Origin: Aequorivita sp. CIP111184
Lineage (GTDB): Bacteria; Bacteroidota; Bacteroidia; Flavobacteriales; Flavobacteriaceae
Assembly (NCBI RefSeq): GCF_900489465.1
Contig: NZ_UEFQ01000036.1
Location: 1-64,000 of the forward strand
Length of the DNA stretch: 64,000 bases
Direction: 5' to 3'
Part shown: positions 6,622 through 61,867 of the stretch, one piece after another
How the letters are laid out: each line of letters begins with the position of its first letter
Numbering within the stretch: the stretch's first letter is position 1
Program-made: the position numbers and the translations under genes
Notes under the pieces: generated by a model
Databases searched by the model: none
What the model saw: the letters and a program-made list of their open reading frames with translations, nothing else
What the model was told of the DNA's origin: nothing

Positions 6622-7791
6622 TTAAACCTTAGAACAAATGAGCATCTCTTTTTTATCCTCTAAATTAGTCACAAAAAACAAATAGATATCGCCACCGTCT
6701 TTAATTTTCCACTTTTTACGAAGGGTTTCCACAGATTCTGGAAAATTTCTGGTAGTAATATTTGCTTTTTTGAAGGATAGGGCGGCACGCATCTCGATTT
6801 TGGTATAAGGAATAGCCTTTTCAATCAAAAAAACTCTTCCCGGAAAATCTATTAAAGTTTCACTGGTATAAAGATGTGTATTTTTATGAAGTTTATTCAC
6901 CTTAAATTTTTCGAACACCAAATCGAAGGCACCACTTTTTAAGATTGCAGCATTTGGCTCATAAAGATACTTTTTGGGTAAGCTATATAAAGCCGTGGGA
7001 GTTTCGTTCCATTTAAAATCAAATCTTTCAATCCCCGATTTTTTGATATTTACAGTTTTAATATGTGGTTCCTGAAAAGCATCCTTTTTCAATAACCAAA
7101 GCAATTCTTTTACTTCGTTATCAACCGCAACAATATGAATTTCGAAAACTTTCTGCAATTCAGCCAATCCAATTGAAACATCCAACATAGGCGAAGTTTT
7201 CAAAAGTAATTGATTGCAGTTAGTTAATATTTTGGATATATTTTCAGGTATATTCGGTTCGCAATCCCTAAGAAAGAAAACCTTTCCTTTACTTTCATGG
7301 CGCCGGGAAGGGTCTGCGTATACTACGCCATAATTCTTGCTTAAAACGGCCGTTAAACCATCTTCAGGAAAACATTGGACATTGTCTTTATGGAAAACTT
7401 TAAAATTATGCTTTGCCATCTCTGAGAGTGCTTCATTAATTTCAAAGTGATGCACAGTAGAAATTTTTTCAGAAAAGGAAAAACTATCAACCCCAAAGCC
7501 GCCAGTTATATCTGCAAGAATTTCACCTTTTACCAATGAAGCCTTATAATCGGCAGTTATTTCAGAAGAAGTCTGCTCTAGATTTAATTTTGGTGGAAAC
7601 AAAATATTTTGCGTTTCAAACCAGGTTGGCAGTTTTTTTTCAATCTTTTTTCGGCTTTCAATTTGCTGAATCAATTCATGGACTGAAACATCTTCAAACG
7701 GACTACCGGCGAAAGCAAGTTTTGAAATATCGTCTTCAAAATTTTTTATAAAATTCTGTACTTCGGTATTTAAAAGGGCAGAGTTAATCAA
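6622..7791 (-). CDS. PG_1098-type SAM-dependent methyltransferase (THUMP-like domain)
   Basis: Class I methyltransferase of 389 residues resembling the Porphyromonas PG_1098 family. A helical N-terminal region (1-85) is followed by a Rossmann methyltransferase core with motif I LADITGGFG (92-100), an acidic ribose-binding HHFEIN strand, and ADPSRR at 159-164 as the catalytic-site motif. The C-terminal 120 residues should form the ferredoxin-like and THUMP-like domains. The architecture suggests modification of RNA, probably tRNA or rRNA, but the exact base is unknown. It sits 3 bases after the AI-2E-type gene and close to the tRNA operon. Start ATG at 7791. Confidence 0.75.
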   Translation of the reverse strand: MINSALLNTEVQNFIKNFEDDISKLAFAGSPFEDVSVHELIQQIESRKKIEKKLPTWFETQNILFPPKLNLEQTSSEITADYKASLVKGEILADITGGFGVDSFSFSEKISTVHHFEINEALSEMAKHNFKVFHKDNVQCFPEDGLTAVLSKNYGVVYADPSRRHESKGKVFFLRDCEPNIPENISKILTNCNQLLLKTSPMLDVSIGLAELQKVFEIHIVAVDNEVKELLWLLKKDAFQEPHIKTVNIKKSGIERFDFKWNETPTALYSLPKKYLYEPNAAILKSGAFDLVFEKFKVNKLHKNTHLYTSETLIDFPGRVFLIEKAIPYTKIEMRAALSFKKANITTRNFPESVETLRKKWKIKDGGDIYLFFVTNLEDKKEMLICSKV

Positions 7792-7794
7792 ATA

Positions 7795-8889
7795 TTATAG
7801 ATTTCGGGTAAGGCGTTTCACAACTTTGTATTCCGATAGAAATTCTTTAGCTATTACTTTTAATGCCGTGTAAGTAGGAACGGCAAGTATCATTCCCGGA
7901 ATGCCAAAAACAAAACCTCCTATTAAAATTACAAGAAAAATTTCCAGCGGATGGGAGCGAACACTGTGACCAAAAATTACAGGCTGAGATATAAAATTAT
8001 CAAAAACCTGGGCAATAGCATATCCTCCCGAAGCAATCATTAATAATGGCAAGAGTCCTGTAGAAAAATCAGCTCCAAGGTTATTGGAGATTATTACAAG
8101 TAACATTAACCCCCAACCTATTATTGGACCCAGATAGGGAACAATATTTAAAAAGGCACATATTAGCGCCACTGCAATTGCATCACGAATATCTAGATAG
8201 AGCAGAAGTACGGAGTAAAAAAGTGAAAGTATAAAAATTTGTAAAAGCAGACCTATAAAATAACGGGAAAGCAGTTCTTTAATTTTTATTAATATCCTTT
8301 TAAATTTTTCTTCATCTCCAGTTTTTGCCAGGGAAAGTACTGTTCGGGCTATTAAGTATTCATCTTTCAAAAGAAAGAAAGAAATGAACAAAACCGAGAA
8401 TATACCAATAATAGTACCTGCAATATTTCCGAAGAAAATATCAATAAAACTTGGAATAATTTCAATATCCATATTTTGTACGTAGGTAGTACGCTTGATT
8501 GCTTCAACCAGCTGAAAATGGTCTACACCAAGATAATCACTGGCTTGGATGTTCAGTTCGTTTAAATCGCGCTTTACTTGTTCAAAATCAATTTGGGAAA
8601 TATGTTTTCCCTGTTCAATTATAATAGGAACAAAAATACTGAGAAGTAAACTAAAGGTTCCAATAATAATAAGAAGTGTAAAAACCGAAGCTAGCGTATT
8701 CCCGAAACGAAACCTTTTTCTTAAAAATAATACTAGCGGCCTTCCCATCAATGAAAGTACCAAAGCCAAGCCAACATATAGAATGAGTGCTTGTATTTCA
8801 TACAAAAACCAAATAAAAATTATGATACCCACCATTACAGCGAGGGCTCTTAATATACCTAGGGTTATTGCTTTTGCAGTAGTTTTCAA
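7795..8889 (-). CDS. AI-2E family transporter (PerM/YdiK-like)
   Basis: Polytopic inner-membrane protein of 364 residues with about eight hydrophobic segments. A soluble region at about 95-150 lies between the early and late membrane helices. Family-typical C-terminal motifs are present: FLNIVPYLGPIIG near 245-257 and the block from QPVIFGHSVRSHPLE through GIPGMILAVPTY near 300-345. Members export diverse small molecules or ions, and substrates usually cannot be predicted from sequence; autoinducer-2 transport should not be assumed. It is upstream of, and probably co-transcribed with, the methyltransferase gene. Confidence 0.85.
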   Translation of the reverse strand: MKTTAKAITLGILRALAVMVGIIIFIWFLYEIQALILYVGLALVLSLMGRPLVLFLRKRFRFGNTLASVFTLLIIIGTFSLLLSIFVPIIIEQGKHISQIDFEQVKRDLNELNIQASDYLGVDHFQLVEAIKRTTYVQNMDIEIIPSFIDIFFGNIAGTIIGIFSVLFISFFLLKDEYLIARTVLSLAKTGDEEKFKRILIKIKELLSRYFIGLLLQIFILSLFYSVLLLYLDIRDAIAVALICAFLNIVPYLGPIIGWGLMLLVIISNNLGADFSTGLLPLLMIASGGYAIAQVFDNFISQPVIFGHSVRSHPLEIFLVILIGGFVFGIPGMILAVPTYTALKVIAKEFLSEYKVVKRLTRNL

Positions 8890-8979
8890 GCAGTAAATAT
8901 ACTATATTCCACTATAGAAAAAATCAAAGTTTTGTTAAGGGATTGTAATGTTGATTAATGAATAATAGTATGCTGCGAA

Positions 8980-9624
8980 TTAATTTTCGAAAACGTATTT
9001 AATAATATTGGCACCCATTTGCAGGGCTTTAAGTCTTACTTCCTGCGGATCGTTATGAACTTCTGGGTTTTCCCATCCATCACCAAGATCTGTTTCAAAA
9101 GTGTAAAGCAGGACCAATCTATCTTCCACAAAAATACCGAAAGCCTGTGGACGCCCTCCGTCATGTTCATGAATTTTGGGCATTCCCTGTGGAAACTTAT
9201 AAACGTAACTAAACATCGGATAATTAGCGGGTAGCTCTTTCAATTCTTTGTTGGGGAAGATTTTCACAATTTCCTTGCGTATATATTGGTCTATTCCGTA
9301 ATTATCATCAATATGAAGAAAACCGCCGCTCATCAAATAATTACGAAGGTTTTCAGCCTCTTCGGAGGAAAAGAAAACATTTCCGTGACCCGTCATATGC
9401 AAAAAAGGATAATCAAAAATATCAATGCTACTAGGTGTAACGGTTTCTGGCTTTTCCTTTATAGAAGTGTCTATGTGTTGGTTGCAGAATTTCGCCAAAT
9501 TAGATAGCGAAGTTGGGTTTGCATACCAGTCACCACCACCGCCGTATTGCAAAAGAGCTATTTCCTGAGCTGAAATGTTGCCGATAAAAATAAAAATAAA
9601 AACTGTAAATATTGTTATTCGCAT
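8980..9624 (-). CDS. Secreted DUF4159 protein
   Basis: Protein of 214 residues with an N-terminal signal peptide (about residues 1-19, cut before QEIALLQYGG) followed by a single DUF4159 domain. This is a glutamine-amidotransferase-like fold of unknown activity, with HMTGHGNVFFSSEE and GGFLHIDDNYG as visible conserved stretches. Longer family members in Bacteroidota are linked to gliding or BatA-type loci, but nothing of that kind is adjacent here. It is expected in the periplasm. A TACTTTTG -7 box sits just upstream of the ATG. Confidence 0.75.
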   Translation of the reverse strand: MRITIFTVFIFIFIGNISAQEIALLQYGGGGDWYANPTSLSNLAKFCNQHIDTSIKEKPETVTPSSIDIFDYPFLHMTGHGNVFFSSEEAENLRNYLMSGGFLHIDDNYGIDQYIRKEIVKIFPNKELKELPANYPMFSYVYKFPQGMPKIHEHDGGRPQAFGIFVEDRLVLLYTFETDLGDGWENPEVHNDPQEVRLKALQMGANIIKYVFEN

Positions 9625-9629
9625 ATCTT

Positions 9630-9637
9630 CAAAAGTA
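9630..9637 (-). promoter_or_regulatory. Candidate -7 box upstream of the DUF4159 gene
   Basis: TACTTTTG on the minus strand matches TAnnTTTG and lies 5 bases before the ATG at 9624. That implies either a leaderless or very short leader, or a slightly later start. No clear TTG at the usual distance was found, so support is partial. Confidence 0.35.
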
Positions 9638-9731
9638 CAAATTCAGAAAGAATAAAAGTGAAACAATTTTCTAAAAATGGCTTACTGTAAGTTTTAAAGA
9701 AATAGACGGACAAACTTTTAAAATTGTTGGT

Positions 9732-10475
9732 ATGAAAAGGATATTATTAGTGCTTATTTTTCCGGTGATTTTTGCAATTTGCTCTTTTAATAAAGACTCT
9801 TCCGAATTAGAAAATAAACCTTTTGCCATAGTTCAACTTTTTACTTCGCAAGGTTGCAGCAGCTGTCCAAGTGCTGATATACTGTTAGAAAAAGTTGAAA
9901 AGGAATATGGAGGCAAAAACGTTTTCGTTCTTTCCTATCATGTAGATTATTGGAACCGTTTGGGCTGGAAAGATGTTTTTAGCAAGAAAGAATTTTCAGA
10001 TATACAGTATCGCTATAGTACTAAATTTGGAGGCTCAAGTGTTTATACTCCGCAGGCAGTGGTAAATGGCGATGTTCATTTTGTAGGCTCCAGTGAAGCA
10101 AAAATGGAGGATAATCTTTCAAGATTTCTAAAAATAAACCCTGAGAATACAATAGCTCTTTCTGAAATTAAAAAAACCGGAAATCAAATAACTTTCAGCT
10201 ATAAAACGGAAGGTGATATTTCCAGAAAAGATTTAAAAATTGCGCTTGCCATCGAGAAAAAAGAAACTAGTATTAAACGCGGCGAAAACAGCGGACGAAA
10301 GCTTTCAAGCGTAAATATTGTAGTAGAGCAGTTAAAGAATTCACTAACTGAATCTAGTGGAACAATGAGCATCAAAATTCCAGAGTTGGTTGAAAAAGGG
10401 GATCAACTTATTTTGATTGGATTCGTTCAGTCCCAGAATTTTGTCATAACTGCAGCGACACAACAAAAAATATAA
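9732..10475 (+). CDS. DUF1223 thioredoxin-like secreted protein
   Basis: Protein of 247 residues with a hydrophobic N-terminal signal (residues 1-18, possible lipobox-like FAICS). A DUF1223 domain follows, a thioredoxin-like fold with the redox-type motif SQGCSSCPSAD (Cys42 and Cys45). YHVDYWNRLGW and YTPQAVVNG are further family signatures. It is probably a periplasmic or lipid-anchored thiol protein whose partner is unknown. It is monocistronic, convergent with the rsmE operon, and followed by a weak stem-loop at 10482-10551. Confidence 0.8.
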   Translation: MKRILLVLIFPVIFAICSFNKDSSELENKPFAIVQLFTSQGCSSCPSADILLEKVEKEYGGKNVFVLSYHVDYWNRLGWKDVFSKKEFSDIQYRYSTKFGGSSVYTPQAVVNGDVHFVGSSEAKMEDNLSRFLKINPENTIALSEIKKTGNQITFSYKTEGDISRKDLKIALAIEKKETSIKRGENSGRKLSSVNIVVEQLKNSLTESSGTMSIKIPELVEKGDQLILIGFVQSQNFVITAATQQKI

Positions 10476-10481
10476 TTAAGG

Positions 10482-10551
10482 CCTAACAGGTTTTCCTCCA
10501 ATTTTGAAGCTTCCGCAATGGGCGGGTGGCAAAAAATTGAAATCTGTTGGG
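10482..10551 (+). terminator. Weak long-loop stem between convergent genes
   Basis: Arms 10482-10493 (CCTAACAGGTTT) and 10540-10551 (AAATCTGTTGGG) pair over 12 bp with two G-U wobbles and are followed by TTTT. The 46-nt loop is unusually long for a terminator, so this is tentative. Confidence 0.3.
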
Positions 10552-10553
10552 TT

Positions 10554-11264
10554 TTATTCATTTAAAAAAGCTACGCTGTGACAAGCCACCACAGCCGCAG
10601 TTTCCGTTCTTAAACGGCTTTCACCCAAGGTAACTGGAATGTATCCGCCCTTTTTTGCAAGCTCAATTTCTTCAGATGAAAAATCACCTTCGGGACCGAT
10701 AAGAATTGTTACTTTCTTATTTGGAAGTAAGATTGATTTTAAGGATTTTTTATCGGTTTCTTCGCAATGCGCTATACATTTTAAATCAGCGGAATTATTT
10801 TCCAAATTTATAAAATCCTTAAATGAAACGGAATCATTTAAAATGGGCAAATACGCCTTTAGCGATTGTTTCATGGCACTTTGAAGGATTTTTTCATACC
10901 GTTCAGGCTTAATGATTTTTCGTTCGCTGTGGGCGCAGATTATTGGGGTGATCTCTGTTATGCCTATTTCGGTAGCTTTTTCTAAAAACCATTCGTAACG
11001 ATCGTTCAGTTTTGTGGGTGCAACGGCTAAATGAAGCTGATAGGGTAGTGGTTGCTGAATATCTTGTGAAAGTATTTTTACCAAACACGCTTTAGGATTC
11101 GCATTCATTATTTCTGAATCGAAAAAAGAACCCTTTCCATTTGTGATTTTGAAAGTGTCGCCTTCTTTCATTCGTAAAACCTTTGCAATATGACGGCTTT
11201 CCTCTTTATCAAAAGTAATTTCCTTTGTGGATTCTGAAATGTTGGGATTGTAAAAAAGCTGCAT
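10554..11264 (-). CDS. rsmE: 16S rRNA (uracil-1498-N3)-methyltransferase
   Basis: SPOUT-class methyltransferase (236 aa) that methylates N3 of U1498 in 16S rRNA. The N-terminal PUA-like domain (1-70) contains SRHIAKVLRMKEGD. The C-terminal trefoil-knot domain has the SAM-binding signatures LIGPEGDFSSEEIELA (near 188-205) and LGESRLRTETAAV (near 213-226). Length and motifs are standard. The start at 11264 abuts the stop of the TfoX-like gene (11265), so the two are co-transcribed after tsaD. Confidence 0.93.
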   Translation of the reverse strand: MQLFYNPNISESTKEITFDKEESRHIAKVLRMKEGDTFKITNGKGSFFDSEIMNANPKACLVKILSQDIQQPLPYQLHLAVAPTKLNDRYEWFLEKATEIGITEITPIICAHSERKIIKPERYEKILQSAMKQSLKAYLPILNDSVSFKDFINLENNSADLKCIAHCEETDKKSLKSILLPNKKVTILIGPEGDFSSEEIELAKKGGYIPVTLGESRLRTETAAVVACHSVAFLNE

Positions 11265-11597
11265 TTATTTCAATTTTGTTTTAGCGTGTGCAACGCCTAT
11301 TTCTACCCATTGCTGTAGTTTTTCCTCTGTATTAAAACCTTGTGCTGTTACAAAAATGAATTCCTTCATCGGTTTTCCGGTAAAGTCCATTGGTTTTACG
11401 AAAGGACTTTTGGTTATTTCAGCCATTTTTTCAGCGGGGATGCGAACCATCAATCTTTCCTTGGTTTCTCCCACACACATTTTTCCTTTAAAAAGAAAAC
11501 AAGTACCTCCGAACATTCGCTTTTCTTCGATGTCCTTTTTCCAAGGATTGAGAGCAGTTCTAATGCGTTTTAATATTTCCTCGGAATTTGGATTCAT
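11265..11597 (-). CDS. TfoX N-terminal domain protein
   Basis: Protein of 110 residues consisting of a TfoX/Sxy N-terminal domain only (signature KRMFGGTCFLFKGKMCVG near residues 26-43). In gammaproteobacteria TfoX activates competence with CRP, but single-domain versions in Bacteroidota have no known target, so a competence role should not be inferred. It lies between tsaD and rsmE on the same strand with 0-4 base gaps and is clearly part of that operon. Confidence 0.8.
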   Translation of the reverse strand: MNPNSEEILKRIRTALNPWKKDIEEKRMFGGTCFLFKGKMCVGETKERLMVRIPAEKMAEITKSPFVKPMDFTGKPMKEFIFVTAQGFNTEEKLQQWVEIGVAHAKTKLK

Positions 11598-12709: not shown

Positions 12710-15700
12710 GTGATCATTGTATTGCTGCTCGTGCTTATAATTATTATTTTTTCAATACCGGCAGTACAGACTTGGGCTGCTAAAAAAGTAACCACAAATC
12801 TTAATGAAACTTACGGAACTGATATTCAAATAAAACGGTTGGGCCTCAATTGGAAAGGCGAAGTGGACGTCCGTGAAGTTTTTATTGCTGATCATCACGC
12901 AGATACATTAATTTATAGCAAAGAGCTGCAAACCAATATAATTAGCTTTCAAAATTTAATTAAAGGGGATCTTGGTTTTGGAAGTATTGCACTGGATTAC
13001 GCCAAATTGTACGTTAAAACTTATAAAGACGAAGAAACCGATAATCTTTCCATTTTCGCTAAAAAATTTGATACAGGCAAGCCTAGTACTTCTCCGTTTT
13101 CGCTATTTAGTAACGATGTAAGCTTAACCAATAGCAGGATTAAGATTACTAACGAAAATCTTGAAAACCCTGATGTTTTTATTTTAGACAATGTAAACGT
13201 AGTTGCAGATAATTTCAAAATTAATGGCCAAGACGTTAGTGCCAATATTAAGAAATTGTCCTTGATTGCTGCCCGTGGAATTACTATTAATGACTTACAA
13301 GCAGACTTCTCTTATACTGCTACAAATATTACTCTAAAAGATTTGAATCTTGAAACTACAGAATCAAAAATTGTGGGCGAAATTGATTTGGATTATTCAA
13401 AAAACGGGATGGCAGATTTTGTGAATGATGTAATTATAACAGCAAACATCAAGGATTCTAAAATTGCATCAAACGATTTAAATGGTTTTTATAACGAATT
13501 TGGCCCAGATCAAATAATCTTACTAGATACTGAGCTAAAAGGAACTTTAAATAACTTTACCGCTAACAACCTGAAATTTCAAACCGGTGATACAAATATT
13601 GAAGGAGATTACATTTTTAAAAACATTTTAGATTCAGAAAAAGAATACGCTATTACCGCCTCCAATCACAATATTTCAACTAATTATTTTGATCTCAGAC
13701 GCTTTATGCCGCGTGTTTTAGGCGACGTTGTGCCAGTAGAATTAAAAGAGTTAGGATCTTTTAATCTTAGCGGAAACACTTCAATTATTGGTAGTGAATT
13801 AAATACAAAAAGTAATTTACAAAGCACAATAGGACAAGCAGTTGTAGATTTAAAAATGGGCAATATCAATAATATTGACAATGCCTATTACAAGGGGAAT
13901 ATTGTGTTGATAAACTTCAATTTGGGCAAAATTGCCAATACAACTTCTTTGGGAAAAATGACCGCCAATTTAGATTTTGACGGTCGCGGTTTTAGCAAAA
14001 ACACAGTAAATACAGAGATTTCAGGAAAAATATCTTCTTTTAATTTTGAAGATTATAATTACAAAAATATTGTGGTTTCGGGAAATCTTAAAAATCCTCT
14101 TTTTAATGGTGAACTTTCTATTGACGACCCAAACTTAAAAATGCAATTTAAAGGTTTGATAGATGCATCAAAAGAAACCAACCAATTAGATTTTGAGGCA
14201 AATGTTGAATATGCAGAATTGAATCAACTAAACCTGATAAAGCGTGATAGTATTTCGGTCTTCACTGGGAAAGTGGTGGTTGACATGGAGGGAAAAACCA
14301 TTGACGACGTTGTTGGAACCATCAACTTCAACCAAACCTTTTATCAAAACGAGCGAGATTATTATTATTTTGATGATTTTAATATTACTTCATCATTTGA
14401 AGGCCCTAAGCGAACCATTGAGATAAATTCACCCGATATTTTAAATGGAAAAATTTCAGGCGAATTTTTAATTGCAGATATCCCCAATCTTTTTCAGAAT
14501 GGGATTGCCAGTATTTATACAAACTACATTCCCCAAGAGGTTACCACCAATCAATATATTGATTATGAATTTGTTATTTACAATAAAATTATTGATGTTT
14601 TTGTACCCCAATTGAAACTAGGTGATAACACCCGTGTAAAAGGATCTGTTTCTTCGGATGAATCAAAGTTTAAGCTCGATTTCCGTTCTCCGGAAATACT
14701 TCTTTTTGACAATTATATAGGTAAACTGAATATTCAAGTAGATAATGACAATCCATTGTATAATATATACATATCTGCAGATTCCGTATACACGGGATTC
14801 TATAATATTAAAGATTTAAACGTAATTAATAAAACTTTGAACGATACTATGTATGTACGTTCAGAATTTGCTGGAGGTCCAAAAAAAGAAGACCTTTTTA
14901 ACCTTTCATTATACCATACCATCAACCCCTCGGGTAAATCTGTGATTGGTGTAAAAAAATCTGATATCACTTATAAAGGCAATGTTTGGTATTTAAACGA
15001 AAACAACAATCGCCTAAATAAAGTTGTTTTTGATGATAATTTTTCCGAAATCAGGATTGATTCCTTGGTTTTAAGTAGAAATGACCAATTAATTCAAATG
15101 GCAGGCGTATTGCGAGATTCAACGTATAAAGATTTAAAGGTGCGCTTTAAAGACGTAAATATTGGAGAGATAACGCCGGAAATAGACAGTTTGCGTCTTA
15201 ATGGAAATATGAACGGAAAGTTTGATTTTCTTCAAAAGAATGGCGCATATTATCCAAATAGTACCGTAACAATTGATAACGTTAATATCAATGAAATTCC
15301 GTTCGGAGATTTGAATTTAAAAATAGACGGAAATGAAGATTTAACCAAATACCGGATAAACACATCCTTAACAAACAATGATGTTAAATCAATAAATGCC
15401 GTGGGTGAAATTGATGTTTCTTCCAAAAACCCCCAAATACAGCTCAATGTTGATTTAAATCAGTTCAACATGCAGGCTTTTAGTCCATTTGGAGGTGATG
15501 TAATTACCAATATTCGCGGACTTATTTCTGGAAATGCAAAAATTTCAGGTAGTTACAAATCTCCAGATATTTTAGGGCGTTTCTCTTTGGTTAAAAGTGG
15601 ATTAAAAATTCCTTATTTGAATACAGATTTTGATATTGAAGATAACGCACAGATTATAGTTACCAAAAATAAATTTCAAATAGGCTATACAAATATTACC

Positions 15701-55643: not shown

Positions 55644-55678
55644 AATCCCGTACCATAATTGGACGGGATTTTTTTTAG
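55644..55678 (+). terminator. Terminator of the lipocalin-OmpA operon
   Basis: Stem AATCCCGT (55644-55651) / ACGGGATT (55663-55670) with an 11-nt loop, followed by a run of T. It isolates the downstream biosynthetic cluster from the OmpA gene. Confidence 0.85.
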
Positions 55679-55692
55679 TTTTAAAGGAACGG

Positions 55693-56820
55693 ATGACAAA
55701 CTTAAAAAAATGGGATATTATTGTAATAGGGGGCGGACTTGCCGGTCTCTGCACTGCATTACATCTAGCAAATAATAATTGTAAAGTCTGTTTGATTGAA
55801 AAAACTGATTACCCACATCACAAAGTTTGCGGTGAATATGTAAGCAATGAAGTATTGCCCTATTTACAATCTTTAGGAATTGATCCTTTTTCAATTGGGG
55901 CCAAAAAAATAAATAAATTTGAATTTACCGATAAAAGCGGTTTCCCCTTAAACGTAAATCTACCGTTGGGCGGATTTGGATTGAGTAGATATGCTTTTGA
56001 CAATTTAATATATCAAACCCTCAAAAACAAAGCAACAATTGTTTTTGACACCGTTGAAAAAATTGATTTTGATAAAAATCAATTCACTGTTTCCACACAA
56101 AGTAAAACTGTTTATAAAACAGACTTTGTTGTCGGTTCTTTCGGAAAACGTTCTAATATTGATTCCTTTTTAAAACGAGACTTTATGAAGCAAACTTCTT
56201 CTTGGCTTGCTGTAAAAAGTCATTATGAATATGATTTGCCAGAAGATACTGTTGCCCTTCATAATTTTAACGGCGGTTATTGTGGCTTAAGCAAAACAGA
56301 AACTAATGCAGTTAATGCCTGTTATCTTACTACTTTCAAATCATTTAAAAAATATGGAGATATTAAAAATTTTCAAAAAAAGGAACTTTCAAAAAATCCT
56401 TTTTTAGAAAAATTCTTTCGAGAAGCAACCCCAATTTTTAAAAACCCATTAACCATTAGTCAGATCTCATTCAATAAAAAGATGCCTGTTGAAAATCATA
56501 TTTTTATGGTTGGAGACAGTGCTGGTTTAATACACCCTTTGTGCGGCAATGGTATGGCAATGGCCATTAAAAGCGCTCAGATTTTTTCAAATATATTTTT
56601 AAAAGCTTTCCAAAATAACAGTTTTGATAGATTAAAATTGGAAGAAGCCTACACAAAGAAATGGCAAAATGAATTCGGCGAACGCTTAAAAACAGGAAGA
56701 TTAATTCAGCGAGTCCTATTGAATCCTTATGCTTCTAAAATAGGATTTTCAATGGCGAGAGCCGTACCTTCCATTGTGCCAAAAATTATCAAAAAAACCC
56801 ACGGAACCAAATCTCTATGA
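55693..56820 (+). CDS. FAD-dependent oxidoreductase (geranylgeranyl reductase/hydroxylase type) of the PKS cluster
   Basis: Flavoprotein of 375 residues. Signatures are the dinucleotide-binding IGGGLAGLCTALHLA at 12-26, the family motif PHHKVCGEYVSNEVLPYL near 41-58, and GDSAGLIHPLCGNGMAMA (GD motif) near 275-292. Members reduce isoprenoid double bonds or hydroxylate aromatic rings; the sequence does not tell which. It is the first gene of the seven-gene cluster, starts 15 bases after a terminator, and overlaps the methyltransferase gene by 4 bases. By analogy to the flavoprotein hydroxylase of Streptomyces alkylresorcinol (srs) clusters it may oxidise the type III PKS product. Confidence 0.82.
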   Translation: MTNLKKWDIIVIGGGLAGLCTALHLANNNCKVCLIEKTDYPHHKVCGEYVSNEVLPYLQSLGIDPFSIGAKKINKFEFTDKSGFPLNVNLPLGGFGLSRYAFDNLIYQTLKNKATIVFDTVEKIDFDKNQFTVSTQSKTVYKTDFVVGSFGKRSNIDSFLKRDFMKQTSSWLAVKSHYEYDLPEDTVALHNFNGGYCGLSKTETNAVNACYLTTFKSFKKYGDIKNFQKKELSKNPFLEKFFREATPIFKNPLTISQISFNKKMPVENHIFMVGDSAGLIHPLCGNGMAMAIKSAQIFSNIFLKAFQNNSFDRLKLEEAYTKKWQNEFGERLKTGRLIQRVLLNPYASKIGFSMARAVPSIVPKIIKKTHGTKSL

Positions 56821-57536
56821 TAACTTTCAACAATAAACAAAGATCCCATCAAATAGAAATAATGGACGATTTGGATTTTCAAGGGGAAGAAATGAAAAAT
56901 GTATTAAACGATCTAAAAAACGTAAACAGATGGCTTGGCGGCAACAATATAACTATTGACGGAATAGAGAAACTCCTAAATGGCTATTCAAAAAATTCTT
57001 TAATTACTATATTAGACTTAGGTTGTGGAGATGGAGAGTTGCTTCGTAAATGTGCAGACTACGGAAAAAATAATAATTACAATTTTGAATGTATAGGAAT
57101 AGATTTCAACGAAAATATTTTGGAATTCGCCAAAAAAAAGAGTTTCAACTATCCAAACATAAAATTTAAAAAAATTGATGTTTTTTTAGAAGAGGAATTA
57201 CTTCCCAATTGCGATATTGCAATATGTACATTGTTTTTACATCATTTCAGCAGTGAAAAAATTGAAACACTACTAAAAATAATTCTTGAAAAATCTAAAA
57301 AAGGATTGATAATTAACGATTTGCAGAGAAGCCTAACCGCATTTAAACTTTTTAAATTTGTTAGTCAAATGTTTTTGAAAACAAAAACTGCCCAACACGA
57401 TGGTTTGGTTTCCATTGCCAGAGGCTTCAAGAAAGATGAGCTTGAGAATATTTCAAAAAAAATCCCAAATCAAAAAAGCAAAATCCAATGGCGATGGGCT
57501 TTCCGTTATCAGTGGATACTTAAAAAAAATATATGA
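56817..57536 (+). CDS. SAM-dependent methyltransferase of the PKS cluster
   Basis: Class I methyltransferase of 239 residues. Motif I is TILDLGCGDGELL near 62-74, the acidic loop CIGIDFNENILEFA is near 94-107, and the post-motif is ICTLFLHHFSSEKIE. A C-terminal R-W-A-F-R-Y-Q end is typical of methyltransferases paired with type III PKS genes. It overlaps both neighbours by 4 bases (ATGA), so the FAD enzyme, methyltransferase and PKS are translated as a unit. It probably O- or C-methylates the polyketide; the position is unknown. Met16 is an alternative start but the coupling favours 56817. Confidence 0.82.
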   Translation: MITFNNKQRSHQIEIMDDLDFQGEEMKNVLNDLKNVNRWLGGNNITIDGIEKLLNGYSKNSLITILDLGCGDGELLRKCADYGKNNNYNFECIGIDFNENILEFAKKKSFNYPNIKFKKIDVFLEEELLPNCDIAICTLFLHHFSSEKIETLLKIILEKSKKGLIINDLQRSLTAFKLFKFVSQMFLKTKTAQHDGLVSIARGFKKDELENISKKIPNQKSKIQWRWAFRYQWILKKNI

Positions 57537-58585
57537 ACGTAAAAATAACAACCGTAGCAAAACAACTGCCGCCGTACAGTAGAAATACCGATGAAGTAAT
57601 TCCATTTGTAAAGCAATGGATGCACGAGCAAGATACCCGTTTTCAGAGAAAAGTGATAAAAATATTTGAAGGTGCGGGGGTGGACAAACGCTACTCCATT
57701 ATGGATCCCATAGAGGTTTTCACCAATACAAGTTTTGAGGCACGCAATGATATTTATATCCGAGAAATTACTAAGCTTGGCAAACAATGCGTTGAAAAAG
57801 CATTGGAAAAAGCGAATTGGGAACCCACAGATATTGATTTTATAATTACCGTAAGTTGTACGGGAATAATGATTCCATCTGTTGATGCATATTTAATAAA
57901 CGAACTTAAAATGAAACAGGACATCGTTCGGCTACCGGTAACAGAGATGGGCTGTGCCGCAGGTGTTTCGGGAATTATTTACGCAAATAATTTTTTAAAG
58001 GCAAACCCTGGGAAACGCGCTGCAGTAATTGCGTTGGAGGCACCAACTGCCACTTTTCAGCTAGATGATTTTTCAATGGTAAACATTGTGAGCGCAGCAA
58101 TTTTTGGTGATGGCGCAGCTTGTGTTTTACTATCTTCCAACGAAGAAGATACCGGTCCCGAAATACTTGCTGAAGAAATGTACCACTTTTATGATTCTAC
58201 AGATATGATGGGCTTTAAGCTTGTAAATACAGGATTACAAATGATTCTTGATAAAGGAGTACCTGAAAAAATTGCTGAACATTTTCCTGCTATTGTACAT
58301 CCATTTTTGAAAAAAAATAATTTTGATATTAAGGATATTGATCACCTCATTTTTCATCCCGGAGGACGAAAAATACTAGAAACAGTTGAGGATTTATTCG
58401 GCAGTTTGGGCAAAAACATTGAAGATACTAAAGAAGTGCTTAAATTGTACGGAAATATGAGCAGCGCGACCGTACTTTATGTTTTGGAAAGATTTATGGA
58501 CCAAAAACCTACAAAAGGAGATTTAGGTTTAATGCTAAGTTTTGGTCCTGGATTTTCGGCACAGCGCGTTTTACTGAAATTTTAA
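57533..58585 (+). CDS. Type III polyketide synthase
   Basis: Chalcone-synthase-superfamily enzyme of 350 residues that extends an acyl starter with malonyl units and cyclises the chain. The catalytic triad is complete: Cys141 in EMGCAAGVSG, His275 in IFHPGGRKILE and Asn308 in YGNMSSATVLYVLE. C-terminal LMLSFGPGFSAQ matches the family GFGPG signature. Bacterial homologues make alkylpyrones or alkylresorcinols from fatty acyl starters. Here a dedicated ACP, ketosynthase, dehydratase and SDR follow, so the starter is probably ACP-bound. Translationally coupled to the methyltransferase. Confidence 0.93.
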   Translation: MNVKITTVAKQLPPYSRNTDEVIPFVKQWMHEQDTRFQRKVIKIFEGAGVDKRYSIMDPIEVFTNTSFEARNDIYIREITKLGKQCVEKALEKANWEPTDIDFIITVSCTGIMIPSVDAYLINELKMKQDIVRLPVTEMGCAAGVSGIIYANNFLKANPGKRAAVIALEAPTATFQLDDFSMVNIVSAAIFGDGAACVLLSSNEEDTGPEILAEEMYHFYDSTDMMGFKLVNTGLQMILDKGVPEKIAEHFPAIVHPFLKKNNFDIKDIDHLIFHPGGRKILETVEDLFGSLGKNIEDTKEVLKLYGNMSSATVLYVLERFMDQKPTKGDLGLMLSFGPGFSAQRVLLKF

Positions 58586-58615
58586 AATTTCTTTATTCCA
58601 AATGAAATAATATTT

Positions 58616-59389
58616 ATGAAAGAATTCGAAAATCAATGGGCAATTATTCTTGGAGGCAGTAGCGGCCTTGGACTTGCAAGCGCCAAAAAACTTGCTTTCC
58701 ACGGAATGAACATCTGCATTGTCCATAGAGATCGAAAAAGTAATTTAGCCGCATTTGATGAAGAAGTAAATAAAATGGAATCGTATGGAGTAAGGGTTAA
58801 AACTTTTAATCAAGATGCTTTAAGCAATGATGTTAGAAATGCCATTGTTCAAGAATTTCCAAAGAATAGCGTTAAACTATTGGTGCACAGTATCGCCAAG
58901 GGAAGTTTAAAAAAAATGAATGGAAGCGAGGAAGAATTACTTTCAAAACAGGATTTTGACATTACCATTCACGCCATGGCCACAAGTTGGTATGAATGGA
59001 GCCAAGCTTTAATACATAACGAAATATTCACGAAAAAAGCGAGAAATGTTGCTTTCACCAGTGAAGGAAATAGTAGAGTATGGCCAGGTTACGGCGCGGT
59101 TTCAGCAGCAAAATCTGTACTTGAGGCACTAATGCGAAATATGGCTGTGGAATTAGCTCCGCTGGAAATAACGACCAATTGCATTCAGGCTGGAACCACA
59201 GAAACTCCTTCATTTTTAGTAATTCCGGGTAGCGATGAACTTGCAAAAATGGCAAAAAAGAGGAATCCTTTTCAGAAACTAACACAACCTGAGTATGTTG
59301 CGAATGTATTGTATTTGCTCTGCAAAGATGAAGCCGATTGGATAAATGGAACCATACTGAAAGTAGATGGCGGGGAAAGCCTGAGATGA
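58616..59389 (+). CDS. SDR-family enoyl-ACP reductase-like protein
   Basis: Short-chain dehydrogenase of 257 residues. The cofactor motif GGSSGLG lies at 14-20, and the active site is Tyr159-x6-Lys166 (YGAVSAAK). That Y-x6-K spacing is the pattern of FabI/FabL enoyl-ACP reductases rather than the Y-x3-K of ketoreductases. VHSIAKGSLKKM also parallels the FabI/FabL substrate loop. It probably reduces an enoyl-ACP made by the adjacent dehydratase. It follows the PKS gene by 30 bases. Ketoreductase activity cannot be excluded by sequence alone. Confidence 0.8.
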   Translation: MKEFENQWAIILGGSSGLGLASAKKLAFHGMNICIVHRDRKSNLAAFDEEVNKMESYGVRVKTFNQDALSNDVRNAIVQEFPKNSVKLLVHSIAKGSLKKMNGSEEELLSKQDFDITIHAMATSWYEWSQALIHNEIFTKKARNVAFTSEGNSRVWPGYGAVSAAKSVLEALMRNMAVELAPLEITTNCIQAGTTETPSFLVIPGSDELAKMAKKRNPFQKLTQPEYVANVLYLLCKDEADWINGTILKVDGGESLR

Positions 59390-59405
59390 TTAACGATTTT
59401 AAATT

Positions 59406-59855
59406 TTGAAACATAACTATATTCTTAATTCACTTCCGTATTCCGAACCATTTTTGTTTGTGGATGAAATACTCTCTGTGTCGGAATATGCTATAAAGGG
59501 AACATATACATTTGAGCACGATGCTTACTTTTATAAAGGACATTTTAAGGACTATCCAATTACACCGGGTGTAATTTTAACGGAATGTATGGCACAGATT
59601 GGCTTGGTATGTTTTGGAATCTATCTTTTAAATGGAAAAACTATTTCAGAGAAATCCACATTTGCATTGAGTAGTACTGAAATTGATTTTTATCTTCCTG
59701 TCTATCCAGGTGAAAAAGTTTCCGTTGTTTCAGAAAAAATATATTTTAGATTTCAAAAATTAAAGTGTAAAGTAAAAATGCTAAATGCAAAAGAGCAAGT
59801 TATTGCTAAAGGAACTATTAGCGGAATGATTTTGAAAGAGAATAAATCCAAATGA
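59406..59855 (+). CDS. 3-hydroxyacyl-ACP dehydratase-like hotdog protein
   Basis: Hotdog-fold protein of 149 residues (TTG start). FabZ-type catalytic residues are His46 (YKGHFKDYP) and Glu60 (GVILTECMAQ); the 14-residue spacing equals that of FabZ. The usual PHRxPF entry motif is changed to LPYSEPFLFVDEIL. It likely dehydrates a beta-hydroxyacyl-ACP in the cluster. It overlaps the ketosynthase gene by 4 bases (ATGA). Thioesterase or isomerase activity is possible in this fold but less consistent with the His/Glu pair. Confidence 0.82.
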   Translation: MKHNYILNSLPYSEPFLFVDEILSVSEYAIKGTYTFEHDAYFYKGHFKDYPITPGVILTECMAQIGLVCFGIYLLNGKTISEKSTFALSSTEIDFYLPVYPGEKVSVVSEKIYFRFQKLKCKVKMLNAKEQVIAKGTISGMILKENKSK

Positions 59856-61123
59856 AGAAACGCGTTGTAATTACTGGTCTGGGAATTGTTTCTCCAAATG
59901 GGGTAGGGATTCCAGCATTTACGAAAGCAATTAAAAAGGGCGTTTCTGGAATCCAGTTTTTCCCCGAACTGCGCGATCTCAATTTTTCTTGTCAGCTGGG
60001 TGCAATGCCAACTATTTCCGAAGAAAAAAAAAGGGAATATCTTTCAGAGCTACAACTTCGAAATTTTAATAGCAGTGGGATTTTATATGGAATAATAGCA
60101 GGAATGGATGCATTTAAAGATGCAAAATTGGAACCTGCAAAAAATGATGATGAACCACTCTGGGATTTGGGAATAATATTTGGAAGTGGTACAAGTGGCG
60201 TTGAAAAATTTCGCGAAGCAATTTATAAAATTGACGATAAAAACGTGCGGCGACTGGGAAGCAATTCCGTAGCCCAAACTATGACAAGTGGGGTAAGCGC
60301 TTATCTAGGTGGGCTCATTGGCGCTGGAAATATGGTTACAGCCAATTCTTCTGCTTGCGCAACTGGCACAGAATCACTCTTGATGGGTTATGAGCACATT
60401 GCCAATGGAAAAGCTACCTATATGCTTTGCGGCAGTACAAGTGATCAAGGACCGTATATTTGGGGCGGTTTTGATGCCATGAAAGTTACAACCTATAAAT
60501 ACAATAATACTCCCAAAAAGGTTGCAGGCCCCATGAGCGCAGATGCTAGCGGATTTGTTCCTGGAAGTGGGGCAGGGGCTTATTTATTAGAATCATTGGA
60601 AAATGCGCAAAATCGCGGTGCCACTATTTATGCAGAAATTTTGGGCGGAGCTATAAACAATGGAGGCCAAAGAGGAGGAGGAAGTATGACGGCACCCAAT
60701 AGTTTAGCAATTCAAAAATGTATAAAACACGCATTGAAAGATGCAAATATTTCCGCATCGGAGATTGAATATATAAATGGTCACTTAACTGCAACAATTA
60801 AAGATCCGGACGAGATTGAAAACTGGAGCATTGCATTGGATCGAAAAGGGAATGACTTTCCGTATATAAATTCTCTAAAAGGAATGGTAGGTCATTGCTT
60901 GGCGGCAAGTGGAAGTATTGAAATTGTTTCAGCAATTCTTCAACTTTACGAGGGCTTTATTTTTCCAAATGTAAATTGTGAAAATTTGCATCCAAGAATT
61001 ACTGAAGTCATTTCTCAAGAAAGAATTTCGACGAAATTAGTTAAAACCTCGTTACATACCATAGCCAAGGCTAGTTTTGGTTTTGGTGATGTAAATGCTT
61101 GTGCTATCTTTAAAAAAATTTAA
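59852..61123 (+). CDS. Beta-ketoacyl-ACP synthase (KAS I/II type)
   Basis: Thiolase-fold ketosynthase of 423 residues. The catalytic triad is Cys169 (NSSACATGTESLL), His311 (INGHLTATIKDPDE) and His348 (MVGHCLAASG). The first His motif departs from the usual NAHGTSTxxND, and YGIIAGMDAF and AGPMSADASGFVPGSG retain the FabF framework. It should condense acyl and malonyl units on the ACP encoded 4 bases downstream. It is distinct from housekeeping FabF by its context and altered loop. The TTANSSACATG region is intact, so it is an elongating enzyme rather than a chain-length factor. Confidence 0.88.
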   Translation: MKKRVVITGLGIVSPNGVGIPAFTKAIKKGVSGIQFFPELRDLNFSCQLGAMPTISEEKKREYLSELQLRNFNSSGILYGIIAGMDAFKDAKLEPAKNDDEPLWDLGIIFGSGTSGVEKFREAIYKIDDKNVRRLGSNSVAQTMTSGVSAYLGGLIGAGNMVTANSSACATGTESLLMGYEHIANGKATYMLCGSTSDQGPYIWGGFDAMKVTTYKYNNTPKKVAGPMSADASGFVPGSGAGAYLLESLENAQNRGATIYAEILGGAINNGGQRGGGSMTAPNSLAIQKCIKHALKDANISASEIEYINGHLTATIKDPDEIENWSIALDRKGNDFPYINSLKGMVGHCLAASGSIEIVSAILQLYEGFIFPNVNCENLHPRITEVISQERISTKLVKTSLHTIAKASFGFGDVNACAIFKKI

Positions 61124-61127
61124 AACT

Positions 61128-61379
61128 ATGAATTCAGAAGAAATTTACAGGCTTCTTGAACCTATTATAAAAACCTACTTGCCTGAGGACATTTCAGCAA
61201 AAGAAATAAATAGAAACAGTGATTTGACCCGAGAACTGAATATAAACTCGGCCCATCTTGTAGATATAGTTTTAGATATTGAGGATGTGTTCAATATTGA
61301 ATTCAAAAATGAAGATATGGAAAGTCTTCGCAATGTAAACGATGCAATTTCACTCATTCAACAAAAGATTTCTGGCTAA
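61128..61379 (+). CDS. Acyl carrier protein of the PKS cluster
   Basis: Protein of 83 residues from ATG 61128; an upstream ATG at 61095 lies inside the ketosynthase frame and is not credible. The sequence is acidic and four-helical with the phosphopantetheine Ser41 in ELNINSAHLVDIVLD. The usual DSL is replaced by NSA, as in several ACPs of secondary or aryl-polyene-like systems. It is the last gene of the cluster, so this pathway carries its own ACP rather than relying only on the fatty-acid one. No clear hairpin terminator follows. Confidence 0.9.
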   Translation: MNSEEIYRLLEPIIKTYLPEDISAKEINRNSDLTRELNINSAHLVDIVLDIEDVFNIEFKNEDMESLRNVNDAISLIQQKISG

Positions 61380-61498: not shown

Positions 61499-61867
61499 AT
61501 GAAAAAATTATTTCTATTATTATTTGTTTTTACTACGTTTTCGGCATTCTCACAAGATCCATTTTTGCAAAAATCGAATCCAGAATCAAAAAAGGAAGCT
61601 GTTAAAATTACAAATAGTTATATTCCAAAACTTGCCTTAACTGGTAAGCAACAGCTTTTATTTCAACAAAAAGTTGAGGAATTTTTGATTAGAAGATATA
61701 AAATTGAAGCAGAATTTGAAGGAAAAGAAAAACTCAACATGCTCTATCAACTTCAACAGCAAGAAACTGATGAAATGAATAACATAATTACACTTCCGCA
61801 AATGGAAGTCTACAAAAAGGTAAAACCAACTATTCAACCATTGGAAACAGTAAAAAAGGACGAATAA
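61499..61867 (+). CDS. Small secreted helical protein (122 aa)
   Basis: Exported protein of 122 residues. A signal peptide (1-19, cut before QDPF) precedes a basic, largely helical mature part rich in Gln/Lys/Glu (residues 45-105). I do not recognise a family. It is expected in the periplasm. Its stop abuts that of the convergent gene at 61868. It is separated from the PKS cluster by 119 A+T-rich bases and is probably unrelated to it. Confidence 0.55.
   Translation: MKKLFLLLFVFTTFSAFSQDPFLQKSNPESKKEAVKITNSYIPKLALTGKQQLLFQQKVEEFLIRRYKIEAEFEGKEKLNMLYQLQQQETDEMNNIITLPQMEVYKKVKPTIQPLETVKKDE

Follow-up and report, generated by a model that had tools for sequence, protein, structure and literature searches.

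The type III polyketide synthase (PKS) cluster of Aequorivita sp. CIP111184 (Flavobacteriaceae) comprises seven plus-strand open reading frames (ORFs) at positions 55693-61379 of the 64,000-nucleotide stretch analysed here (the window, in whose full-length numbering its positions are given), and its PKS is co-inherited almost perfectly with the cluster's flavin adenine dinucleotide (FAD)-dependent enzyme and ketosynthase (KS), even in genomes in which the genes are unlinked. In order, the cluster encodes what we call module A, namely the FAD enzyme, a methyltransferase (MT) and the PKS, often adjoined by a short-chain dehydrogenase/reductase (SDR), and module B, namely a FabZ-like dehydratase (DH), the KS and an acyl carrier protein (ACP), often accompanied by a phosphopantetheinyl transferase (PPTase). 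The cluster is confirmed as real and is conserved among relatives, and the literature searched contains no characterisation of it. It adds a co-inherited type II acyl module to the plan of the MT/FAD type III PKS operons for phenolic lipids, and its product is probably a phenolic lipid carrying modifications.

Co-inheritance of the two modules

The PKS clade, defined by at least 57% identity, is present in 63 of 199 Flavobacteriaceae genomes drawn from 198 genera, about a third of the sample; this count excludes G072, which has a PKS match of 33%, and includes G150, whose PKS match spans residues 115-349 only. The FAD gene occurs in exactly the same 63 genomes and, at the cut-off used, in none of the 136 others, while the KS (E 1e-90) occurs in 62 of the 63 and likewise in 0/136. 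In the sole PKS genome without a KS, G138, the contig ends at the dehydratase. The association of KS with PKS over the 199 genomes gives a Fisher p of 2.5e-51, a value calculated without regard to relatedness. Within a single genus (g127) the distribution is patchy, 12 of the 17 listed genomes having both PKS and KS and 5 having neither. The earlier note on this DNA had taken the seven genes for one pathway, and the co-occurrence of PKS, FAD enzyme, KS and SDR in related genomes leaves that claim unrefuted.

Most of the KSs (59/62) share a contig with the PKS, at a distance of about 4 kb or less. In G066, PKS and KS sit on two contig ends, and in two further genomes, G190 and G144, the PKS locus continues past the SDR with unrelated genes and the DH-KS-ACP trio is found elsewhere, in G190 some 0.36 Mb along the PKS contig and in G144 on another contig. 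Reading these two genomes as evidence that DH-KS-ACP is dispensable was rejected, since the trio was found elsewhere in both. The halves of the cluster are, in this sample, separable in place and not in occurrence, and no other observation speaks as strongly for module B working with the PKS as the fact that unlinked halves are nevertheless kept together.

Two sets of loci describe the neighbourhood more closely. The named-species set contained 80 loci, of which 71 had at least 2 kb of upstream and 5 kb of downstream sequence and 9 had too little flank; of 46 hand-chosen loci, 43 were kept and 3 were set aside for too little flank or less than 50% identity. Among the 71 named-species loci, FAD enzyme, MT, DH and KS were found in 71, ACP in 69 and SDR in 18, and among the 43 hand-chosen loci FAD enzyme and MT were found in 43, KS and ACP in 40, DH in 39 and SDR in 36. 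Four loci of the latter set are incomplete: those of the split genomes G190 and G144, the one cut off by a contig end, and one in which no DH was detected. Over all 80 named-species loci the SDR is matched in 19 and missing in 61, and the 19 that carry it include only one titled Flavobacterium (L088) and none titled Pedobacter. The closest named relatives of the PKS, 87-93% identical, come from Aequorivita and one Flavobacteriaceae metagenome-assembled genome (L034-L046).

Beyond this clade, 11 distant Bacteroidota PKS loci (31-37%; L141, L149-L158) gave no tblastn match to the other cluster proteins. The 261 plasmid records with relatives of the PKS all fall below 60% identity (25 of the 261 being listed), and of two plasmid neighbourhoods inspected, one had no MT, FAD enzyme or KS among its annotated neighbours and the other was nearly unannotated. 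At three of three distant loci tested, an ICMT-family methyltransferase adjoins the type III PKS, a different kind of PKS pair (Table 1). Separately, locus L142 (G535) carries a START/polyketide-cyclase-like ORF between the FAD and MT genes at 7232-7819 (START 22.4 of 22 bits, Polyketide_cyc 21.2 of 23.4) and a YitT-family ORF between PKS and SDR.

Gene identities and layout

The seven adjoining genes were all found in the order described in the earlier note, with the three four-base ATGA overlaps it had reported (FAD/MT, MT/PKS and DH/KS) and remaining gaps of 4-30 bases (PKS-SDR 30, SDR-DH 16, KS-ACP 4). For the ACP, the start listed in Table 1 is a choice over a longer ORF from 61095 (94 amino acids, aa). 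The GC content of the cluster (0.354) matches that of the window (0.355), and the genome assembly spans 3.54 Mb in 44 contigs. Pfam placed each of the seven proteins in its expected superfamily, and among the NCBIfam matches listed (the best 25 for two of the proteins) no family exceeded its cut-off for any of them. The catalytic residues that the earlier note had named are likewise all present in the window proteins. Conservation was counted over rows from fetched relative loci that passed identity and length limits, in which the window's own protein may count twice: PKS C141/H275/N308 is kept in 146/146 rows, KS C169 and H311 in 136/136 and H348 in 129/136 (the other 7 being gapped), DH H46/E60 in 145/145, SDR Y159/K166 in 72/72, and ACP S41 and N40 in 119/119.

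Table 1. Positions of the cluster genes, the upstream hairpin and methyltransferases beside distant PKSs (window positions unless a locus is named)
Feature	Position	Strand	Basis
Terminator-like hairpin and U run before first gene	about 55644..55677	+	folding; conserved upstream alignment
FAD-dependent oxidoreductase, probably ring hydroxylase or oxidase, 375 aa	55693..56820	+	PF01494/PF01266 over cut-off
S-adenosylmethionine-dependent methyltransferase (MT), 239 aa	56817..57536	+	PF13847 and others over cut-off
Type III PKS, 350 aa, Cys141-His275-Asn308	57533..58585	+	PF00195/PF02797 over cut-off
FabL-like SDR with YX6K, probably enoyl-ACP reductase	58616..59389	+	PF13561
FabZ-like dehydratase (DH), 149 aa, TTG start	59406..59855	+	PF07977
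Divergent FabF-like ketosynthase (KS), 423 aa	59852..61123	+	PF00109/PF02801
ACP, 83 aa, Ser41 in NINS context	61128..61379	+	PF00550, 22.5 vs cut-off 20.8 bits
ICMT-family methyltransferase	L149 8345-8836		beside distant type III PKS
ICMT-family methyltransferase	L151 9852-10361		beside distant type III PKS
ICMT-family methyltransferase	L152 10257-10769		beside distant type III PKS

Module A is headed by an FAD enzyme that matches the geranylgeranyl-reductase superfamily model (TIGR02032) below its cut-off. Its five structural models disagree (predicted local distance difference test, pLDDT, 85.9 to 47.2), and in fold comparisons halogenases, (phenol) hydroxylases and Tet-type enzymes appear at similar scores; for both reasons no specific reaction is assigned to it. 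The FAD genes of G026, G018 and G118 each contain one in-frame stop in the matched stretch, reflecting either decay or assembly error. The nearest NCBIfam model to the MT is PRK06202 (119 of 243 bits). The PKS belongs to the type III class by its chalcone-synthase-like domains and intact Cys-His-Asn triad, and scores only 20.9 of 550 bits against the DarB model. In its predicted structure (pLDDT 93.5) it is closest among solved folds to Pks11, with a template-modelling (TM) score of 0.95; ranked by E-value, Pks11, CylI and PKS18 come first, and most rows shown have a TM of about 0.9. These three enzymes take acyl starters, and their proximity gives a hint in the same direction for the modelled PKS, a weak one given that the fold is common to every type III PKS.

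The KS, DH and ACP of a type II fatty-acid synthase (FAS) are present among the seven genes, and they stand well apart from the corresponding proteins of primary metabolism. The KS scores 251 of 494 bits against the FabF model, under its cut-off, whereas the genome's own FabF scores 600; the DH scores 66 of 113 bits against FabZ, and the genome's own AcpP reaches 138 bits against a cut-off of 92. A housekeeping acpP-fabF pair is present separately in the genome, and because the cluster KS is 31% identical to the genome's other KSs, and the cluster ACP 25% identical to the housekeeping ACP, these proteins can be regarded as dedicated paralogues. The SDR scores 127 of 328 bits against the FabL equivalog model, under the cut-off, and is better read as an enoyl reductase than as a ketoreductase, because its best solved relative, 3oic, is an enoyl-ACP reductase and it carries a YX6K motif, which we take to be a FabL-type signature. 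An orphan FabL-like SDR (51%; L188, C17:213180-213947) is present in G031, a genome without the PKS. Of the interpretation put forward in the earlier note, one evolutionary unit combining a tailoring MT and FAD enzyme with its own KS, DH and ACP stands, while the term 'mini fatty-acid synthase' does not: Pfam and NCBIfam reveal no ketoreductase, malonyl transferase or ketoacyl-ACP synthase III among the seven genes, and the SDR is FabL-like and often missing.

Three features had been left out of that note: a companion PPTase, the split clusters described above, and reuse of module B without the clade PKS. The PPTase adjoins the ACP, matching PF01648 over cut-off in the three relatives tested, and matches near the ACP were found at 51/71 named-species and 18/43 hand-chosen loci. 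In the window genome the one PF01648 gene shown lies away from the cluster. Downstream of the ACP, a small secreted-looking protein of 122 aa (61499-61867) follows in most Aequorivita loci; it has no Pfam or NCBIfam match, and both G190 and G144 have weaker matches to it close to their DH-KS-ACP trios.

Just before the cluster, where the earlier note had placed a strong terminator, the hairpin folds at -16.3 kcal/mol (z -3.9; 0/200 shuffles equally stable), and 13 other aligned upstream regions retain, as judged by eye, its CCC/GGG arms and its T run. It is missing from the output of a consensus terminator scan, which gave 2 sites elsewhere against 4.1 expected, so that the hairpin call depends on its folding and on the conserved arms and T run. 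The U run ends ~15 bases ahead of the first ATG, a distance implying that the promoter overlaps the hairpin or precedes it, or that transcription reads through; a promoter scan gave 18 promoter-like sites compared with 20.8 expected from shuffles.

Proposed function and its alternatives

We propose that the two modules cooperate, a scheme whose chances we judge to be evenly balanced. Module B would build or extend an acyl chain carried by its own ACP. Primary metabolism would provide the ketoreductase and the malonyl supply, and in clusters that have the FabL-like SDR this enzyme would saturate the chain. The PKS would then take this chain as its starter, add malonyl units and close a ring, more likely a resorcinol than a pyrone, which the MT and the FAD enzyme would methylate and hydroxylate or oxidise. 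A biochemical coupling of the type II acyl module to the PKS is likely. Type III PKSs that take acyl-ACP are known from ArsB/ArsC and germicidin synthase (PMC6274091), and HidC has been proposed to do so (PMC8086630).

Several observations weigh against the two-module scheme. The co-inheritance counts ignore relatedness among the genomes, and the genome-wide profiles behind them cover four of the seven genes (PKS, FAD enzyme, KS and SDR). The SDR is often absent, being found in 55 of the 63 PKS genomes and missing in 8, the cluster lacks a ketoreductase, and four genomes of the phylum sample considered below have DH-KS-ACP without the clade PKS. Moreover, we infer, rather than observe, that module B builds chains and that its ACP passes them to the PKS, and the same holds for ring type, product class and tailoring steps. 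The PKS itself has DpgA, a malonyl-primed enzyme, as its best NCBIfam model (170 of 425 bits, below cut-off), and its VSCTG stretch, invariant among relatives, matches that of tetrahydroxynaphthalene synthase (THNS), which is malonyl-primed as well. These last two features also favour a two-part molecule, in which a malonyl-primed PKS would make a small phenolic ring and the module B chain would be joined to it later. The co-inheritance data fit such a molecule equally well, and flexirubin offers the precedent of a polyene joined to a resorcinol (PMC3992019). We nevertheless consider it unlikely, as Pfam finds no ligase or acyltransferase gene among the seven to join the parts, and the nearest PKS folds, for what a fold common to all type III PKSs can tell, are those of long-chain enzymes.

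Within the two-module scheme, a resorcinol ring is weakly preferred over a pyrone, mainly because of the planctomycete and cyanobacterial MT-FAD-PKS operons; the PKS of the planctomycete MT-oxidoreductase-type III PKS operon makes alkylresorcinols when expressed in a host (PMC10896814). Trp281 of ArsB is reported to favour resorcinols (PMC6274091), and Phe228 of the window PKS, invariant among relatives, would on our reading stand opposite it. A ring prediction from Phe228 was dropped: the position is Trp in Pks11, which forms pyrones, and Leu in CylI, which forms a resorcinol, and this too speaks against the scheme as drawn, since the pair contradicts any simple rule. The counter-proposal of an alkyl-alpha-pyrone, with the KS module supplying an acyl or beta-ketoacyl starter, can point to Pks11, the closest solved relative and an alkylpyrone synthase, and to germicidin-type pyrone synthases, which accept acyl-ACP (PMC6274091). 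It seems to us no better than a long shot, because the MT and FAD trios studied go with alkylresorcinols (PMC10896814, PMC8086630), and an aromatic ring would better suit an FAD hydroxylase.

Module B is also found in other company. In a sample of 296 genomes from across the phylum (KS threshold E 1e-70), the clade PKS occurs in 25 and the KS in 29, the four extra genomes (G294, G272, G242 and G319) having DH-KS-ACP and two of them the SDR as well. G294 and G272 carry a distant type III PKS (38% and 33%, respectively) on another contig. In G294 (L211), SDR-DH-KS-ACP at 8425-11286 is divergent from DarB/DarH at 12962-15544 (DarB 634.8 of 550 bits, DarH 453.7 of 300 bits), a pair that makes resorcinols and whose presence here counts for the two-module scheme; a PPTase-like gene is borderline, at 24.9 bits against a cut-off of 25. 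In G272, G242 and G319 (L212, L213, L214), DH-KS-ACP lies beside family-2 glycosyltransferase genes, and these sets perhaps represent another lipid pathway with the same module. An ORF of the 377-aa class by the sets of these three genomes has no Pfam match (L212, L213). The KS tree gathers all of these KSs in a single clade that excludes FabF and the KSs of flexirubin synthesis, with no firm order inside. Together these cases are suggestive of DH-KS-ACP as a portable acyl module, the DarB link coming from one genome. That module B is a mere neighbour serving ordinary or envelope lipid synthesis, with the PKS drawing on the general acyl-CoA pool, would suit the sets near glycosyltransferase genes (three genomes) and DarB/DarH (one) and the use of host acyl-CoA by planctomycete PKSs expressed alone (PMC10896814), but it is quite improbable given that the KS never occurs without the PKS in the 199 genomes and that two unlinked copies are still kept.

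A bolder version of the cooperating-module proposal, possible but doubtful, is that a type II acyl line loads the PKS via a dedicated ACP, the hybrid being stably retained from Flavobacteriaceae to Pedobacter, that chains would be saturated where the SDR is present and unsaturated or polyene where it is absent, and that elsewhere the module feeds DarB- or glycolipid-type enzymes. If the modules do cooperate, Bacteroidota would have a widespread phenolic lipid that has gone unrecognised, and the cluster would be a natural example of a type III PKS fed by type II acyl machinery. With SDR and PPTase naturally lost in some relatives and the cluster split in two of them, the function can be tested by comparison among relatives.

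Literature record and known systems

Type III PKS (T3PKS) clusters make up 9% of Flavobacteriaceae clusters (PMC7440613), and one is listed, without analysis in the text available, for Fulvivirga (PMC12565237). A T3PKS-arylpolyene region whose PKS shares 69% identity with the Zobellia galactanivorans enzyme was named in an Aequorivita strain, as 'data not shown' in the accessible part of that report (PMC6139392), and is probably the same cluster. The accessible portions of three papers retrieved in a literature search yielded no biochemistry of the Zobellia type III PKS (PMC8307928, PMC10752948, PMC11225308). A supposed link of koreenceine to Flavobacterium was rejected, the koreenceine cluster being in Pseudomonas and its product only acting on Flavobacterium (PMC6498172). 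For the present cluster, literature searched mostly outside subscription journals gave no product or structure, only a genome-mining label.

Among known systems, the Streptomyces srs operon brings together a PKS, an MT and a flavoprotein hydroxylase and, to our knowledge, has no KS/DH/ACP module. Azotobacter ars, which reportedly uses a type I FAS, differs from the present cluster with its discrete type II partners and no ketoreductase. The flexirubin/dialkylresorcinol clusters of Bacteroidota resemble it in combining discrete KS, DH, SDR and ACP with a resorcinol-forming enzyme, but there the ring enzyme is DarB, whereas here it is a type III PKS and the cluster contains no DarB; apart from the cluster, a flexirubin set is found elsewhere in the window genome, with FlxA, FlxB, DarB and DarH over NCBIfam cut-offs (L215, C35:803000-822999). 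In ars of Azotobacter vinelandii and in germicidin synthase the chain comes from an ACP or FAS, as proposed here (PMC6274091). Close parallels in gene content, as distinct from sequence orthology, are the hidABC operon for hierridins of cyanobacteria and the planctomycete operon, which are likewise compact, with MT and FAD oxidoreductase genes and the PKS last (PMC8086630, PMC10896814); their order is MT-FAD-PKS, while here it is FAD-MT-PKS. The role of the FAD enzyme was still open in those operons (PMC10896814, PMC8086630). MT and FAD genes adjoin the PKS, as in this hidABC-type trio, at 71/71 and 43/43 of the loci compared here. The accounts of the two operons, as far as accessible, describe no KS, DH, ACP or PPTase (PMC8086630, PMC10896814); the present cluster has the first three, and many of its relatives have the PPTase as well.

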